DNA of 26,902 bases from a virus. Both the position numbers and the translations under genes were made by a program. Below the pieces are notes generated by a model. That model saw only the letters and a list, made by a program, of their open reading frames with translations, had not been told where the DNA came from and made no database searches. The stretch is taken from IMG/VR virus record IMGVR_UViG_3300037521_000453, positions 1 through 26,902 of that record. One strand, 5' to 3'. Positions 3,841-25,979 of this stretch are shown one piece after another. Positions within the stretch are counted from its first letter, which is position 1; each line of letters begins with the position of its first letter.

Positions 3841-4407
3841 ATGCAAACTTTTAAAGAGCATTATCTGACAGAAGCCAAAAAAGCCGTTTCCAGAGAGCAG
3901 GCCGAAGAATATTTAAATACAATCAAACGCCAAATCAATCCCGAAATGTCAGACCCAGTCCGCCAAAATGGTGACTGGTGGGATTTGATGATTCGCGACC
4001 ATGATTTTTTTACAGATAGAGGTGGTGAAGAAGATGATGACCATCCAAATTTCACAGGCGATAAACGTCTCAATAAAATCCTCAAATCAATTTTAAAGGG
4101 TGTCGAGTTCCAATATTCACCGGAAGAAAAGGGTTGGATTACCATTCTTCTCAAAGCCAAAAAGCTCACGAAAAAACAACTCGCCGCCGATACCAAAAAG
4201 AAAATCCAACCAGTCATTGATGCCGCCAGAAATGAAATATATAATGCAAATGACCGGTGGGACAGAGATTATTATGAGCAGTTGGTCGATGTTTTGAAAA
4301 AATGGAAAAAGAAATTCATCAAGAAAGAGGAATTTTTCGACCTCCAGAAAAGTGTAAAACATGGGGACGATGAAAACGCAAATAATATCTGGTGGAAGGC
4401 AAAATGA
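3841..4407 (+). CDS. Putative internal head protein with capsid-targeting-like leader
   Basis: 188 aa. The N-terminus is MQTFKEHYLTE|AKKAV: it matches the recurring MKTFKE leader and ends in L-T-E before Ala, the cleavage rule of T4-type prohead proteases ((L/I)-x-E). The body is highly charged. It has an Asp/Glu/Gly patch at about 57-68, a Lys-rich mid-part and a C-terminal WWKAK. No catalytic motif is seen. The start has AAAAGGAATTTT upstream and lies 14 bases after the tRNA. I do not recognise the family. Packaging in the capsid is inferred from the leader. Confidence 0.75.
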   Translation: MQTFKEHYLTEAKKAVSREQAEEYLNTIKRQINPEMSDPVRQNGDWWDLMIRDHDFFTDRGGEEDDDHPNFTGDKRLNKILKSILKGVEFQYSPEEKGWITILLKAKKLTKKQLAADTKKKIQPVIDAARNEIYNANDRWDRDYYEQLVDVLKKWKKKFIKKEEFFDLQKSVKHGDDENANNIWWKAK

Positions 4408-4622
4408 AAACTTTCAAGGAAATATTCGAAGCCAAGTTAAAATTAAATTATACACCGGACAAAAAGTTACCTCTGGTTGTAAGCAAAACGACTTCCAGAT
4501 GGTTCATATATGAGAAGGATGAGCCAGACCCAGTTACGAGCAAATCCTTTAAAACACCGGAAGAGGCCGAGCAATTTATAAAGGATAATCTTCCAGGATA
4601 CAAAATTGAGATTGATAAATGA
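4404..4622 (+). CDS. Small protein with capsid-targeting-like leader
   Basis: 72 aa. The start ATG at 4404 overlaps the previous stop as ATGA and has GGAAGG upstream. A GTG four codons earlier is less likely because the leader MKTFKEIFE|AKL would then not be N-terminal. I-F-E before Ala fits the prohead protease rule. The rest resembles a small alpha/beta unit: beta-like LPLVVSKTTSRWFIY, then KSFKTPEEAEQFIKDNL, which looks like a compact helix motif. No known function; a role inside the head is inference. Confidence 0.75.
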   Translation: MKTFKEIFEAKLKLNYTPDKKLPLVVSKTTSRWFIYEKDEPDPVTSKSFKTPEEAEQFIKDNLPGYKIEIDK

Positions 4623-4843
4623 AAACTTTTCAGCAAATATTACTCGAAAAAATGGACAAAATTCCCCTCACCACGGCGGAACGTGAGGAGATGAAAAAGC
4701 GTTTCGGAAATCCTGGATGCTCTATTGCCAAAAATAAACGTGGCGAATTTTTCGCCTATACTCACCGAGCACGGACAAAATTTTACCCGTCTCTGGCTGA
4801 GTTACCTAAAGATAAAGTCAAATTTATAGCAAGCACGAGCTAA
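4619..4843 (+). CDS. Small protein with capsid-targeting-like leader
   Basis: 74 aa, overlapping the previous gene as ATGA. It begins MKTFQQILLE|KMDK, the same leader with L-L-E at the expected cut. The mature part would be basic, about 64 residues, with FGNPGCSIAKNKRGEFFAY and a C-terminal YPSLAELPKDKVKF. It could be a small beta-hairpin nucleic-acid binder, but this is a guess. Lack of a convincing SD suggests translation is coupled to the upstream gene. Confidence 0.75.
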   Translation: MKTFQQILLEKMDKIPLTTAEREEMKKRFGNPGCSIAKNKRGEFFAYTHRARTKFYPSLAELPKDKVKFIASTS

Positions 4844-4846
4844 ACT

Positions 4847-5077
4847 ATGAAGAGCTTTAAGGAAATATTGGAAAAGGGTTTGAAAGTATCTAAAGAATTA
4901 GAACAGCAGACCGGCTTTCTTATTGATGATATCGAATTTTATATCAATGATGGGGAAGATATTCTCAAAAAAATACCCGGCGCATCTAAAGAGTTTAAAA
5001 AGATGGTCGCCGATGCCAAAAAATTAAAAGATAGCATGACAGGATTTTCTAATTCTGTCGCTAAAAAGGAAAAATAA
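4847..5077 (+). CDS. Small helical protein with capsid-targeting-like leader
   Basis: 76 aa starting MKSFKEILE|KGLKV, three bases after the previous stop. I-L-E fits the protease rule. The remainder is amphipathic helix with heptad-like spacing (LEQQTGFLIDDIEFYI, then FKKMVADAKKLKDSM) and a lysine-rich end. The stop overlaps the next start at the final A. It is the third consecutive gene with this leader, which argues for a functional cassette. No family recognised. Confidence 0.75.
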   Translation: MKSFKEILEKGLKVSKELEQQTGFLIDDIEFYINDGEDILKKIPGASKEFKKMVADAKKLKDSMTGFSNSVAKKEK

Positions 5078-6134: not shown

Positions 6135-6887
6135 ATGAAACCATTACCACATCTCATAATAATTTTTCTATTATCAGTCTTTTTAATTTGGGGATGTGCC
6201 GGACAACAGTTAGACCGGACGCCTATGCCACCACAAGAAGTAGAAGTAAAAATAACCATCGAAAATGTCGGTGAAGGTAAAGCCCTGATAAAAATTAAAG
6301 AGGGGAATAAAATCCATAAGTCAATGGAAGTTCAAAACCCCGAAATGAAATTATCCCAATTATCTTCCACTGCCGGTGATAAAGCATATATTAAAATATT
6401 CTCCGGCCTATCTGTGGCTGATGTAACCAGAACATGGAATGACTTAATTTATTTAGAAACTAAAACTTCAATTCGAGATGTTGTTATATTTATCGATTCT
6501 CCCGGTGGCGATGCTTTTTCTGGTCTCGCACTGGCCGATCAAATTGAAAAATATCAAAAACGTGGATTTAAATTTATTGCCCATGCCACTGGTATCATTG
6601 CATCGGCGGCGGTTCCAGTTTTTGCTGCTTGTGATGAGACCCATGCTACAGAGGCAACGATATTCATGGTTCATGAGGCCGCACTTTGGAAATGGCCGGG
6701 ACGGGAAACTGCAAGTCAAATCCGGTCACAAACGGCATTGATGGACTTATTGCAACGCCTATATTTAAATAAACTGGTCAGGCATTCAAATATTGATTAT
6801 GAAAAATGGGAAGACATGGAAGCAAAAACGTCTTGGTTTGATGTAAATAAAGCCGTTGAAATCGGAATACTTGACTATATCGATTAA
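6135..6887 (+). CDS. ClpP/SppA-fold serine protease with lipoprotein signal
   Basis: 250 aa. The N-terminus has a short basic start, a hydrophobic core LIIIFLLSVFL, and C21 after IWG, which fits a lipobox (Trp at -2 is unusual). Residues 22-80 are a linker or beta region. From about 85 on it matches the ClpP/crotonase fold: FIDSPGGD (119-126), the nucleophile region TGIIASAAV with Ser157, FMVHEA with His180, and a closing KAVEIGILD that resembles the end of ClpP. The Ser/His placement suggests an active protease. Export to the membrane is unexpected for a phage ClpP homologue; these are usually prohead or cytosolic proteases. A good SD (AAGGAG) precedes the ATG. It follows the internal-protein cassette. 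Confidence 0.85.
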   Translation: MKPLPHLIIIFLLSVFLIWGCAGQQLDRTPMPPQEVEVKITIENVGEGKALIKIKEGNKIHKSMEVQNPEMKLSQLSSTAGDKAYIKIFSGLSVADVTRTWNDLIYLETKTSIRDVVIFIDSPGGDAFSGLALADQIEKYQKRGFKFIAHATGIIASAAVPVFAACDETHATEATIFMVHEAALWKWPGRETASQIRSQTALMDLLQRLYLNKLVRHSNIDYEKWEDMEAKTSWFDVNKAVEIGILDYID

Positions 6888-8512: not shown

Positions 8513-8848
8513 ATGAAAACATTTAAACAATTTTTAGAGGGAAAGTTGCCAGATGGGATGTATCCGACTCCGATGGTACAGCTTTCTCTCAGTTGGGCAT
8601 TCCGTAATAAAAAATTTGCCACGTGGCATAAATTATATAAAAAGCACATCGATGATTATTATGATAGCATGAAAGAATTTAGAGCCGCAGGTGGGAAGCC
8701 ATATAGCCGCAGTTGGTCAGAAATGGTTGGATACCACGTCCAAAATACCAATTATGACGGAGAACTCGGAGTCAGTGCATTCTGGTCCGCAATATCCAAA
8801 AAATTTAAAATAACACCCGAAGATTTAAACTATAAACCAGGACAGTGA
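8513..8848 (+). CDS. Putative internal protein with capsid-targeting-like leader
   Basis: 111 aa. It begins MKTFKQFLE|GKLPD, the shared leader, with F-L-E instead of strict (L/I)-x-E. The rest is rich in aromatic residues and compact: WAFRNKKFATWHKLYKKH, YYDSMKEFRAAGG, SWSEMVGYHV and a C-terminal helix-like FWSAISKKFKITPEDL. No transmembrane helix or Cys. The upstream ~105 bases carry only an 11-codon frame at 8423. It lies far from the 3841-5077 cassette, so the leader has spread to, or been kept in, several loci. Confidence 0.75.
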   Translation: MKTFKQFLEGKLPDGMYPTPMVQLSLSWAFRNKKFATWHKLYKKHIDDYYDSMKEFRAAGGKPYSRSWSEMVGYHVQNTNYDGELGVSAFWSAISKKFKITPEDLNYKPGQ

Positions 8849-22878: not shown

Positions 22879-22909
22879 GTTCGCTGAACATTTCAATCCA
22901 GTGAACTGG
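22879..22909. repeat. Two short palindromes in the gap after nrdJ
   Basis: GTTCgctGAAC (22879-22889) and CCAGTgaACTGG (22898-22909) lie between the terminator and the 22946 gene. They could be operators for the head-protein genes, or chance. No -35/-10 pair is clear here. A TATAAAT sequence at 22922-22928 resembles the -10 of T4 late promoters. Confidence 0.35.
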
Positions 22910-22945
22910 TAAATAGTTATATATAAATCAAATAGGAGTATTTAA

Positions 22946-23545
22946 ATGAAAGATTTCAAAGAATTTTACGAAGCCAATGAATTTGATGACAGTTTTATCG
23001 ATGAGGATGAGGTTTTAGAGGAAGCCCAACTCTGCAATAAAATGTTCGATTTTATTATGGCACTCGATGAGGATAACGTGCCGGATGATTTGGTGGACGA
23101 ATATATCGAAATAATTGAAATCGTTGCCGGTGATGAGGATGAGGATTTAGCTGAAGCCGCCCTTAAAATCAAAACCGATAAGGGTGACGTCACCCTGAAG
23201 GCGAATGATAGCATCGAACACGAAGCCAAACCTGGAGTTGTTCGTATCGGTATGGCCGGTGACGTTATCAAATCCGGTGTCAAATTTAAAAAAGGTGGCA
23301 AATGGTATGTGGCCGAATCCATCGAAATAAATGAAGCACCGCCTGCCAAACGAGTCCGCCGAGACCCAGTGAAACGGCGGAAGGCCGCTCGCGAATTTCG
23401 GAAAGTTAAAGCCAAAAAGAAAATCGAAGGTCGCCGGACGAGAAAAACCGCCAAGTTCAAACGGTTTAAGAAAAAGCAAAAACGACTGGGCAAACGGGGC
23501 AAAACTGCAACCGGCAAACGCAAACGGACGTTTATCAATAAATAA
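22946..23545 (+). CDS. Bipartite acidic/basic putative head-core precursor
   Basis: 199 aa. Leader MKDFKEFYE|ANEF, then a very acidic part to about 70. A mixed middle domain (71-130) starts after L-A-E70|A and ends at I-N-E130|A. The C-terminal 69 residues (131-199) are packed with Lys and Arg (RRKAAREFRKVKAKKKIEGR and similar), like a histone-type or DNA-condensing tail. Another L-E-E|A lies at 24-26. If the phage protease follows the T4 (L/I)-x-E rule, cleavage would release three pieces, one strongly DNA-binding. The acidic half could keep the tail quiet until maturation. TAGGAG SD. Confidence 0.8.
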   Translation: MKDFKEFYEANEFDDSFIDEDEVLEEAQLCNKMFDFIMALDEDNVPDDLVDEYIEIIEIVAGDEDEDLAEAALKIKTDKGDVTLKANDSIEHEAKPGVVRIGMAGDVIKSGVKFKKGGKWYVAESIEINEAPPAKRVRRDPVKRRKAAREFRKVKAKKKIEGRRTRKTAKFKRFKKKQKRLGKRGKTATGKRKRTFINK

Positions 23546-23554
23546 GAGGCCGCA

Positions 23555-24649
23555 ATGAAGAAATTTAATTTTACGCCGTCAAGGAAGTTTTCCTTTCAGG
23601 ATATGTATGATAGTTTAACGCCGGAGCCAGAGCCGGAGCCAGAACCTTTTGGAGATTATCTGATTGAAGGTCGTGATAAAGGCACCATCGAACTTATCGA
23701 AGGTGGATCGACTGTTATTTTAAATTTTCAGGGGTCAGGTGGTAAAGGTTCCCTTGTGATGATGAAGGCGAAAGACTGGAACGCATTAAAAACCGGTAAA
23801 ACCGGCCAGAAGGTAAAGGCCGAAGCCGCTATATTTGGATTATGGGAGTCAGCACCTTTAAATGAAGCCGCATTACCGAGCCAATATACAAATAAAATCA
23901 AGGGGATACCGAGCAAAGCCTTTGATTGGTTCATGAAATATCAAACGCAGTTTGATAAAAAGGATTTCGGCTTTAAAAAGCTCAATATTTCCAAGGTATC
24001 AGTCAACACTTCCGCCCTGACCGATAAACAACGGGGCCGGATTGTCGCAAAACTTGGTTTTAAAAACCATAAAAGTCAAGCCAGTGCTCTGGAGAAAATA
24101 ATAGCATCGGCACGTGAGAAATGGTCTGATATCCAAACTCTGGCGCATATGGAAACATATGGCGAAAAGCCCGGCTTTGGCAGTTACAAAGTATCCGGCA
24201 TCGGCGATAATAAATATTCCGATATCCATAAAAAGCAATTGAGAACGCTTGCTCATATGGAAAATGTCTTTAAAAATGCACGTGATGCACATAAAGCCGC
24301 CGCAAAATTGACCGAAGCTAAGGAATCTTCATTTGTTGATGCTGTTTTAAAAGCCCTCAAAAATGCAGGTTCGAAGAGAATCAAGGAAGTTATGGATGCA
24401 ATGGCAAAAGGCGACCATGCAAAAGCTGCATCTTTATTAGGTAAAGGTAAATTAACTGAGGGGTCAACTGAAAACGCCCTTGGAACTTTAAAGGCGATTA
24501 TCGGCAGTCTGAAGGGACGAAATGACGCCACAGGCAAAGATATGTTTAAAATGGCTGTCGGTATAAAAGATTATTACGATAAGGAAAAAAGCTTCAGTCC
24601 AGACCAAGCAAGCTGGATTTTCAAAATGTCAAAAATGTTCAAAAAATAA
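23555..24649 (+). CDS. Putative multi-domain head precursor with repeated LxE sites
   Basis: 364 aa. It begins MKKFNFTPSRKFSFQDMYDS, a variant of the leader, then a Pro-Glu repeat (about 22-31). (L/I)-x-E|A/G/S sites occur at LIE38|G, LIE49|G, LWE98|S, LNE104|A, LTE254|A and LTE302|G. The central part (105-254) is basic and helical, with TLAHME repeated at 195-200 and 231-236. The final ~60 residues are helical (KDMFKMAVGIKDYYDKEKSF, WIFKMSKMFKK). The layout fits a scaffold or core protein that is chopped during head maturation. No catalytic motifs. Start with AAGAGGC. Confidence 0.75.
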   Translation: MKKFNFTPSRKFSFQDMYDSLTPEPEPEPEPFGDYLIEGRDKGTIELIEGGSTVILNFQGSGGKGSLVMMKAKDWNALKTGKTGQKVKAEAAIFGLWESAPLNEAALPSQYTNKIKGIPSKAFDWFMKYQTQFDKKDFGFKKLNISKVSVNTSALTDKQRGRIVAKLGFKNHKSQASALEKIIASAREKWSDIQTLAHMETYGEKPGFGSYKVSGIGDNKYSDIHKKQLRTLAHMENVFKNARDAHKAAAKLTEAKESSFVDAVLKALKNAGSKRIKEVMDAMAKGDHAKAASLLGKGKLTEGSTENALGTLKAIIGSLKGRNDATGKDMFKMAVGIKDYYDKEKSFSPDQASWIFKMSKMFKK

Positions 24650-24662
24650 GGAGATAAAACAT

Positions 24663-25979
24663 ATGTTTGCACAAAAATGGGATAAATTTGCAAGCCTTAG
24701 AACGAAGGGACTGGAAAGTTATGTCCCTCTCAGTTATAATGGCTTTATATGGATTTTCGGAGGCCAAGAATTCGAAAATGTATTAAACAATAAAGTCTAT
24801 AAATCAAAAACCGCTTATCTTTGGGAAAAGGTTACACCGAATCCCCTTGCAATTACGCCGGACGTGATGCATGCTGGATTTACCGAAGGGGACGCCGCCA
24901 TTTTCAATGGAAAAATGGTATTAGTCGGCGGGTTGGATGATACAGGCACCGTTATGGCCACTGTTATCTCTTCCATCGATGGTATCAATTGGGTTGGTGG
25001 TAAAGATTTGACCGCCGCCGTTCATAAGCATAAAGTTGTTGTTTACGCCGGTGAATTATATCAGGTCGGCGGGACAACCGATGGAACAACTCCTCTGGAA
25101 AAAGTTTACAAGAGTGCGGATGCCGATTTGCCCGGTGGAACTTGGGCACAGGTCGGGGTCGATATTTTACCCGCACCGCTTATGGCCTTTGCAATGGCCT
25201 CATGGAACGGCAGATTTTGGGTCGCCGGTGGCATTACCACAGCCGGTGCATACTCGAAGAAAATGTATTCCACAACCGATTTGCTCACCGACTGGGCCGA
25301 AGAAGGCACCGATATGTCGCCTGAAGTCAGGGATGCCACATTGATTCCGATGGGTGACCGGATGTATTTGGTCGGCGGAGAGACCGCTTCCGGTGCAAGC
25401 CGCAAAGTTTATGTCACCGAAGACGGAATAAACTGGGTCGATTTGGGAGACAAAATGCCATTCGGTTCCGAGAGACGAGCCGCCTTCAGGCAAGTCAAAC
25501 CAGATTATAATAAACGGGACGTCAGTGCCTTTATCATTGCCGGAACGACATTGCGGGATGAGATTTACGAATCAAAATTGGATTTTAATCCTTTTGGATG
25601 GAGAGACGTCACCCTGCCACGGCATTGGGAAATCACCGCCACCAACGGAACGTGGGTCGGAGACCATTGGTTACCGAAGGATAACGGGGCAACATTTGAC
25701 CTGCAACTGGCCGCTTTGACGGGGTCGACATGGGCAACATGGAAACGCCCGACAGCACTCCGGTTGGGTATCAGTCAAATCGGAGCAAGCCCTGGAGCCA
25801 TCGGTGTTGACATCCAAGATGCAGGTCCAGCAAGTATCGGGTCGGATGCCGCTTATAACCACGGCGAAATCGTCATTGCCTTCGCAGGAACGGACGATTT
25901 AGACCAGATTTTGATTGACCTTGATGTCACATATCAGGTTGATAAAATTGAACTTTATTATCCTGTGAGGCCGCTATAA
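24663..25979 (+). CDS. Kelch-repeat beta-propeller protein, probable virion/adsorption protein
   Basis: 438 aa. At least five kelch-like blades are seen by their Gly-Gly turns: IFGG (31-34), VLVGG (86-90), YQVGG (133-137), WVAGG (186-190) and YLVGG (235-239), with a weaker IIAG. Aromatic strands such as DGINW recur. From about 330 the fold changes to a beta-rich C-terminal domain (WATWKRPTALRLGISQIG...). Phage propellers of this sort usually sit on tails, fibres or capsid decorations and bind surface glycans. It follows the head precursor genes. It may be a tail-tip or head fibre; no enzyme motif. SD AAGGAGA. Confidence 0.75.
   Translation: MFAQKWDKFASLRTKGLESYVPLSYNGFIWIFGGQEFENVLNNKVYKSKTAYLWEKVTPNPLAITPDVMHAGFTEGDAAIFNGKMVLVGGLDDTGTVMATVISSIDGINWVGGKDLTAAVHKHKVVVYAGELYQVGGTTDGTTPLEKVYKSADADLPGGTWAQVGVDILPAPLMAFAMASWNGRFWVAGGITTAGAYSKKMYSTTDLLTDWAEEGTDMSPEVRDATLIPMGDRMYLVGGETASGASRKVYVTEDGINWVDLGDKMPFGSERRAAFRQVKPDYNKRDVSAFIIAGTTLRDEIYESKLDFNPFGWRDVTLPRHWEITATNGTWVGDHWLPKDNGATFDLQLAALTGSTWATWKRPTALRLGISQIGASPGAIGVDIQDAGPASIGSDAAYNHGEIVIAFAGTDDLDQILIDLDVTYQVDKIELYYPVRPL

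Follow-up and report, generated by a model that had tools for sequence, protein, structure and literature searches.

The 199-amino acid (aa) protein encoded at 22946-23545 of this viral DNA is likely the precursor of a prohead-core or internal-head protein in an uncultured T4-type myophage. A gp21-type protease would mature it, its charge being masked until then, and its basic tail would be retained for a while near the DNA. Support for a head precursor that a T4-type prohead protease processes comes from features read from the compared sequences: an acidic-to-basic layout with charge balance, a cleavage-type site at the border that is kept along with the tail in four lineages, a gp21 homologue in a relative, the residues of an N-terminal tag, late-promoter-like DNA shared upstream of the gene, and a partner gene of similar design.

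The window, meaning the whole stretch of DNA that was analysed, is an entire viral record of 26,902 bases, and the record is probably a fragment. T4-type replication genes are present (DNA polymerase, replicative helicase, a RecA-like protein, a T4 RNase H-like exonuclease, and ribonucleotide reductase); the DNA polymerase matched PHROG_262 at 7.5e-231 and was about 37% identical to the polymerases of T4-like marine phages. No capsid, portal, or protease genes were recognised within the 26.9-kb window. Two further regions were also noted. A Kelch-repeat protein is encoded at 24663-25979 (PF24681 at 6.5e-11, which does not reach its cut-off, and Kelch_6, which exceeds its own). The local G+C is higher, at 0.51 compared to about 0.41, and the protein was not seen at this place in the related contigs L004 and L005. 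At 6135-6887, a lipoprotein-like signal sequence is followed by an apparent ClpP-type protease domain, judged by eye, which is unusual for a phage. Translation of the open reading frame gave the 199-aa protein as previously described, and the gene adjoins ribonucleotide reductase in the window as well as in L004, L005, and L019. Its features are as follows, with a slash marking the bond at each cleavage-type site:

22903-22916, plus strand: GAACTGGTAAATAG block including GGTAAATA (22908-22915), late-promoter-like, 38 bp ahead of the start codon; putative promoter
22934-22938, plus strand: ribosome-binding site AGGAG by sequence; relatives have AGGAG or GGGAG at the same place
22946-23545, plus strand: candidate head-precursor gene, 199 aa, translation confirmed
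22946-22972, plus strand: capsid-targeting-like N-terminus MKDFKEFYE; M1, F4, and F7 invariant in four lineages
22946-23335, plus strand: acidic pro-region, residues 1-130, net charge -23; diverged, 75-130 aa long in relatives
23015-23026, plus strand: LEE/A site at residues 26/27, not conserved
23147-23158, plus strand: LAE/A site at residues 70/71, not conserved
23327-23338, plus strand: INE/A site at residues 130/131, conserved at the border as [IL]xE/[AG] in four lineages
23336-23542, plus strand: basic tail, residues 131-199, net charge +32; no internal site, purifying selection, two predicted helices (141-166 and 169-183)

Relatives of the protein were found only on viral contigs from uncultured viruses, in four lineages; these were L002 and L003 (99% identical), L004 (within the 129.5-kb record G003), L005, and L019. 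Neither annotated phages nor GTDB genome contigs yielded a homologue, and searches of Pfam, PHROGs, and solved structures with the protein gave no useful match; the tail had no recognised domain in any of the three. Structure prediction from five sequences was of low confidence (mean pLDDT 62). The alignment divides the protein into a conserved tail and a diverged part before the border. Tails were 81-90% identical to that of L005, and codon differences from the window tail were 24-30 synonymous versus 13-17 nonsynonymous, indicating purifying selection. The tail begins with APPAKR and is 51% Lys/Arg. Net charges of the pro-region and tail in the four lineages were -23/+32, -27/+28, -29/+30, and -34/+30, so that the two halves are roughly charge-balanced. 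No tail homologue was found in nine other T4-type contigs, 7 of which carry the partner domain described below; several of the nine are fragments, which makes this absence weak evidence.

Sites were counted with the pattern [IL]xE/[AG]. An earlier note on this DNA had described three such sites, the last standing exactly where a Lys/Arg-dense tail begins, and both observations were borne out: LEE/A (24-26/27), LAE/A (68-70/71), and INE/A (128-130/131) are present as translated, and INE/A coincides exactly with the start of the 69-residue tail. The same note divided the protein by these sites into leader, acidic region, middle domain, and tail. Of this division the border survived comparison, but the two upstream sites did not. 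Near the first site the other lineages carry LSE/A, LSD-A, and LSD-A, and at the second they have LAE-Q or nothing. In contrast, the border site reads INE/A, LGE/A, IEE/A, and LDE/G in the four lineages, with P3 being only I or L and P2 free to vary, and no site of this type lies inside the tail in any lineage. Composition-preserving shuffles of the 130-residue part gave a mean of 0.43 sites, and 0.8% of them had at least 3. In 2.3% a site fell exactly on the border, so the border site in the window sequence by itself is only suggestive. The corresponding frequencies for the four lineages were 2.3%, 2.4%, 3.3%, and 3.6%; their product is about 6e-7 if the pro-regions are independent, a figure that is overstated because the E/A or E/G adjoins the conserved tail. 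Retention of the site in four diverged lineages is what makes the finding strong, and the comparison supports constraint on the border. T4 gp21 cleaves after L/I-x-E (PMC9026906), and we infer that the 199-aa protein would be cut at its border in the same manner.

A better reading of the leader confines it to the first 9 residues, as a T4-like capsid-targeting tag. Among these residues M1, F4, and F7 are the sole invariant ones, and targeting of T4 IPIII relies mainly on residues 4 and 7 (PMC9026906); the N-terminus would thus direct the precursor to the head. On the late strand of G003, 14 of 104 genes start with a strict tag pattern, compared to none of the 122 genes on the opposite strand (heuristic gene calls), and a looser pattern occurs at 11% of N-termini compared to 1.5% of internal positions. 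When scored with a tag matrix, the other G003 proteins (n = 212) scoring at least as high as the query numbered 0 for L019, 1 for L005, 6 for the window, and 22 for L004, the last having the degenerate tag MEDFADFY (rank 22 of 212). A cleavage-type site right after the tag, FYE/A at residues 9/10, is an extra site of the window lineage only; a tag followed by E/A is absent in L004 and L005.

Other tagged genes were also noted. The window contains a group of small ones at 3841-4407, 4404-4622, 4619-4843, 4847-5077, and 8513-8848, with the tags MQTFKEHYLTE/A, MKTFKEIFE/A, MKTFQQILLE, MKSFKEILE, and MKTFKQFLE/G. Four of the 5 score above every untagged G003 protein, and their products are probably packaged internal head proteins. 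In G003 (L010-L013), at least 14 late genes with the tag, most of them lacking a known function, lie on the minus strand at about 47.5-104.5 kb, suggesting a large set of head-packaged proteins; one of them (L012:13017-13463) had a weak PARP-like match (E 0.047). The positive charge of tagged proteins was higher than that of other late-strand proteins, although not significantly (P 0.11).

The GAACTGGTAAATAG block upstream of the gene is conserved in all four lineages. In G003, GGTAAATA lies 45-66 bp upstream of the genes for the major capsid protein, scaffold, sheath, tail tube, and tail fibre, and it also precedes a tagged gene between portal and protease. On the late strand of this record it stands before 7 of 103 genes compared to 0.37 expected, an approximately 19-fold excess. 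GGTAAATA appears to be the late promoter core of this phage group, replacing the T4 sequence TATAAATA. The T4 element itself was considered for the window and set aside (1 match versus 2.2 expected). G003 encodes a gp55-like late sigma factor (1.1e-17). Given this factor and the upstream GAACTGGTAAATAG/GGTAAATA sequence, the 199-aa gene is probably late despite its early-gene neighbours, and late transcription would be expected for it.

The gp21-type protease, the capsid genes, and the late regulator were found in relatives and not in the window fragment. The G003 protease matched Peptidase_S77/gp21 (E 1e-34) and the PHROG head maturation protease (1.8e-54). A gp23 match (2.9e-89), portal, and gp22 are also encoded, and the gp21-family protease gene is followed by those for the scaffold and the major capsid protein. 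The gp22 scaffold is acidic, with a net charge of -35. Two genes lie between portal and protease, the position of T4 genes 67 and 68, and neither encodes a basic tail.

The immediate neighbour of the 199-aa gene shares its layout. The features of this partner gene are:

23555-24649, plus strand: partner gene; its variable leader contains the motif SFQDMYDSL plus several LxE sites and precedes a conserved C-terminal domain
24452-24463, plus strand: LTE/G site at the border of the partner domain; LxE/G in all four lineages, with L300, E302, and G303 invariant
24461-24646, plus strand: conserved partner domain of about 60 aa; found elsewhere directly after a short targeting leader, and in some contigs beside the prohead protease gene

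In other T4-type contigs the partner domain follows a short leader, ending for example in LNE/D or LCE/G, and adjoins portal or protease genes; it is close to the prohead protease gene in L045, L047, and L048. These settings make the partner a probable head-core protein, which in turn supports the head-precursor reading of the 199-aa gene. The domain, which is unnamed and has the form GSTENA..L.AI.G...DYYxKEKSFSPDQAxWI, was seen with phage-specific leaders in the window (24452-24646), L040, L041, L043, and L045-L048. In L040, several neighbouring genes have a common leader ending in LNE/A or LNE/G. Compared to L003 (10610-11560), the partner in the window (23555-24649) has 48 additional residues between two KLTE sites, although the two phages are near-identical. 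A difference of this kind is as expected if the sequence is disposable.

Taken together, these data suggest the following course of events. The gene would be transcribed late from a GGTAAATA-type promoter, jointly with the second head-core gene, and its product, the precursor, would be sent into the scaffold core by the N-terminal MxxFxxF. With a net charge of -23 to -34, the acidic pro-region would nearly offset the +28 to +32 of the basic tail, so that before packaging the tail stays soluble and away from nucleic acid. Once the prohead is complete, a gp21-type protease would cleave after L/I-x-E; the acidic part would be cut at its extra sites and then lost, and the border cut would free a basic peptide of about 69 residues without a further site. 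We infer that this peptide remains, at least temporarily, in contact with the incoming DNA, having been masked by charge until then. DNA binding by the tail is predicted from its composition, since its Lys/Arg content makes the peptide sufficiently basic for it. The earlier note had proposed a designed precursor that frees a DNA-condensing peptide inside the head, perhaps histone-like in action. The comparison upholds a head precursor with a protease-type site, but bulk condensation is unlikely at T4-like copy numbers. T4 internal proteins are present at about 360 copies per head (PMC9026906), and at that number a charge of +32 each would, by arithmetic, offset only about 4% of the phosphate charge in a 150-kb genome. 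A role with DNA would therefore be local or transient unless the copy number is far higher. A more specific version, which we offer tentatively, is a zymogen-style DNA-binding peptide: an acidic pro-domain of equal and opposite charge would keep it neutral while it is made and the core is assembled. Proteolysis in the prohead would then activate it as DNA enters or just before, tying the release of charge to head maturation.

The main alternative to a role with DNA is a scaffold-core part resembling T4 gp68, whose tail binds the acidic gp22 electrostatically to build the core and whose cleavage dismantles it, the peptide then leaving or being degraded with no lasting DNA role. T4 gp68 (PHROG_1049) is the closest known protein by layout, a likeness without demonstrated homology. 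It is a late core gene product with a diverged acidic or neutral N-terminal half containing several [IL]xE, followed by a conserved C-terminal module rich in Lys/Arg that has a conserved [LIV]xE immediately ahead of it. This acidic/basic protein belongs to the prohead core and is listed at 0 copies in the mature head (PMC9026906). The basic peptide may therefore act in the scaffold core rather than on DNA, or act there first. The strongly negative gp22 of G003 and the lack of a basic tail among the products encoded between its portal and protease also fit such a role. However, homology to gp68 was not detected: there was no PHROG_1049 match, hhalign probability was 0.3%, and a comparison of the tail with nine gp68 sequences gave a score lower than the average for column permutations (z -0.6). 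T4 gp68 has no MxxFxxF tag and a less basic tail, and in T4 gene 68 is flanked by 67 and 21, whereas the 199-aa gene is beside ribonucleotide reductase and not between portal and gp21 genes. Furthermore, a site-free tail that is the best-conserved part of the protein is more in keeping with a product that is retained than with one that is discarded. We regard the scaffold-core role as possible, if short of probable.

An injected internal protein like T4 IPI-III, entering the host with the DNA and acting there on, for example, restriction enzymes or transcription, is unlikely. The tag resembles the one on T4 internal proteins, a group of basic proteins that are packaged and ejected (PMC9026906), and relative G003 has many tagged genes; IPI-IPIII also share aromatic residues at 4 and 7, a basic mature product, and the L/I-x-E cleavage type. 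In contrast, their propeptides are 10-19 residues long, whereas the 199-aa family has 75-130 acidic residues and a post-tag cut that is not conserved. The tail is about half Lys/Arg without a recognised domain, and it is conserved across lineages while anti-host proteins evolve fast. Least probable is an uncut late DNA- or RNA-binding protein with [IL]xE/[AG] as a mere linker, since, although the motif is short and common and falls at the border in 2-4% of shuffles per lineage, four lineages keep it with P3 only I or L and P2 varying freely, the partner gene has the same kind of border site, and a relative encodes the protease.

The preferred reading, a head precursor matured by proteolysis, has parallels elsewhere. 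Ejection and inner-body proteins of phiKZ and SPN3US have long N-terminal propeptides with several cuts by a gp21-related protease (PMC10052503). The SPN3US cut motif is AxE, unlike the L/I-x-E seen here. To our knowledge, no short Lys/Arg-rich product is known among the cleaved proteins of these phages. In adenovirus, the virion protease trims an N-terminal piece from the basic DNA-bound core proteins pVII and pX/mu (PMC7998265). The similarity is in outline of working only; the virus, protease, and sequence are unrelated, and the propeptide is short and lacks a charge-balancing acidic half.

The findings indicate that sequence suffices to read T4-type head maturation in phages that are uncultured. 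In combination, conservation of the border site, the targeting tag, and late-promoter-like DNA flag internal head proteins that family libraries leave unnamed. Since gp67 and gp68 are reported missing in cyanophages (PMC2984593), analogues in other T4-type lineages are of interest. If the charge switch is true, it would explain how very basic DNA-binding proteins can be made before the head holds DNA, and it would offer a compact model for gp67 and gp68 of the T4 core.
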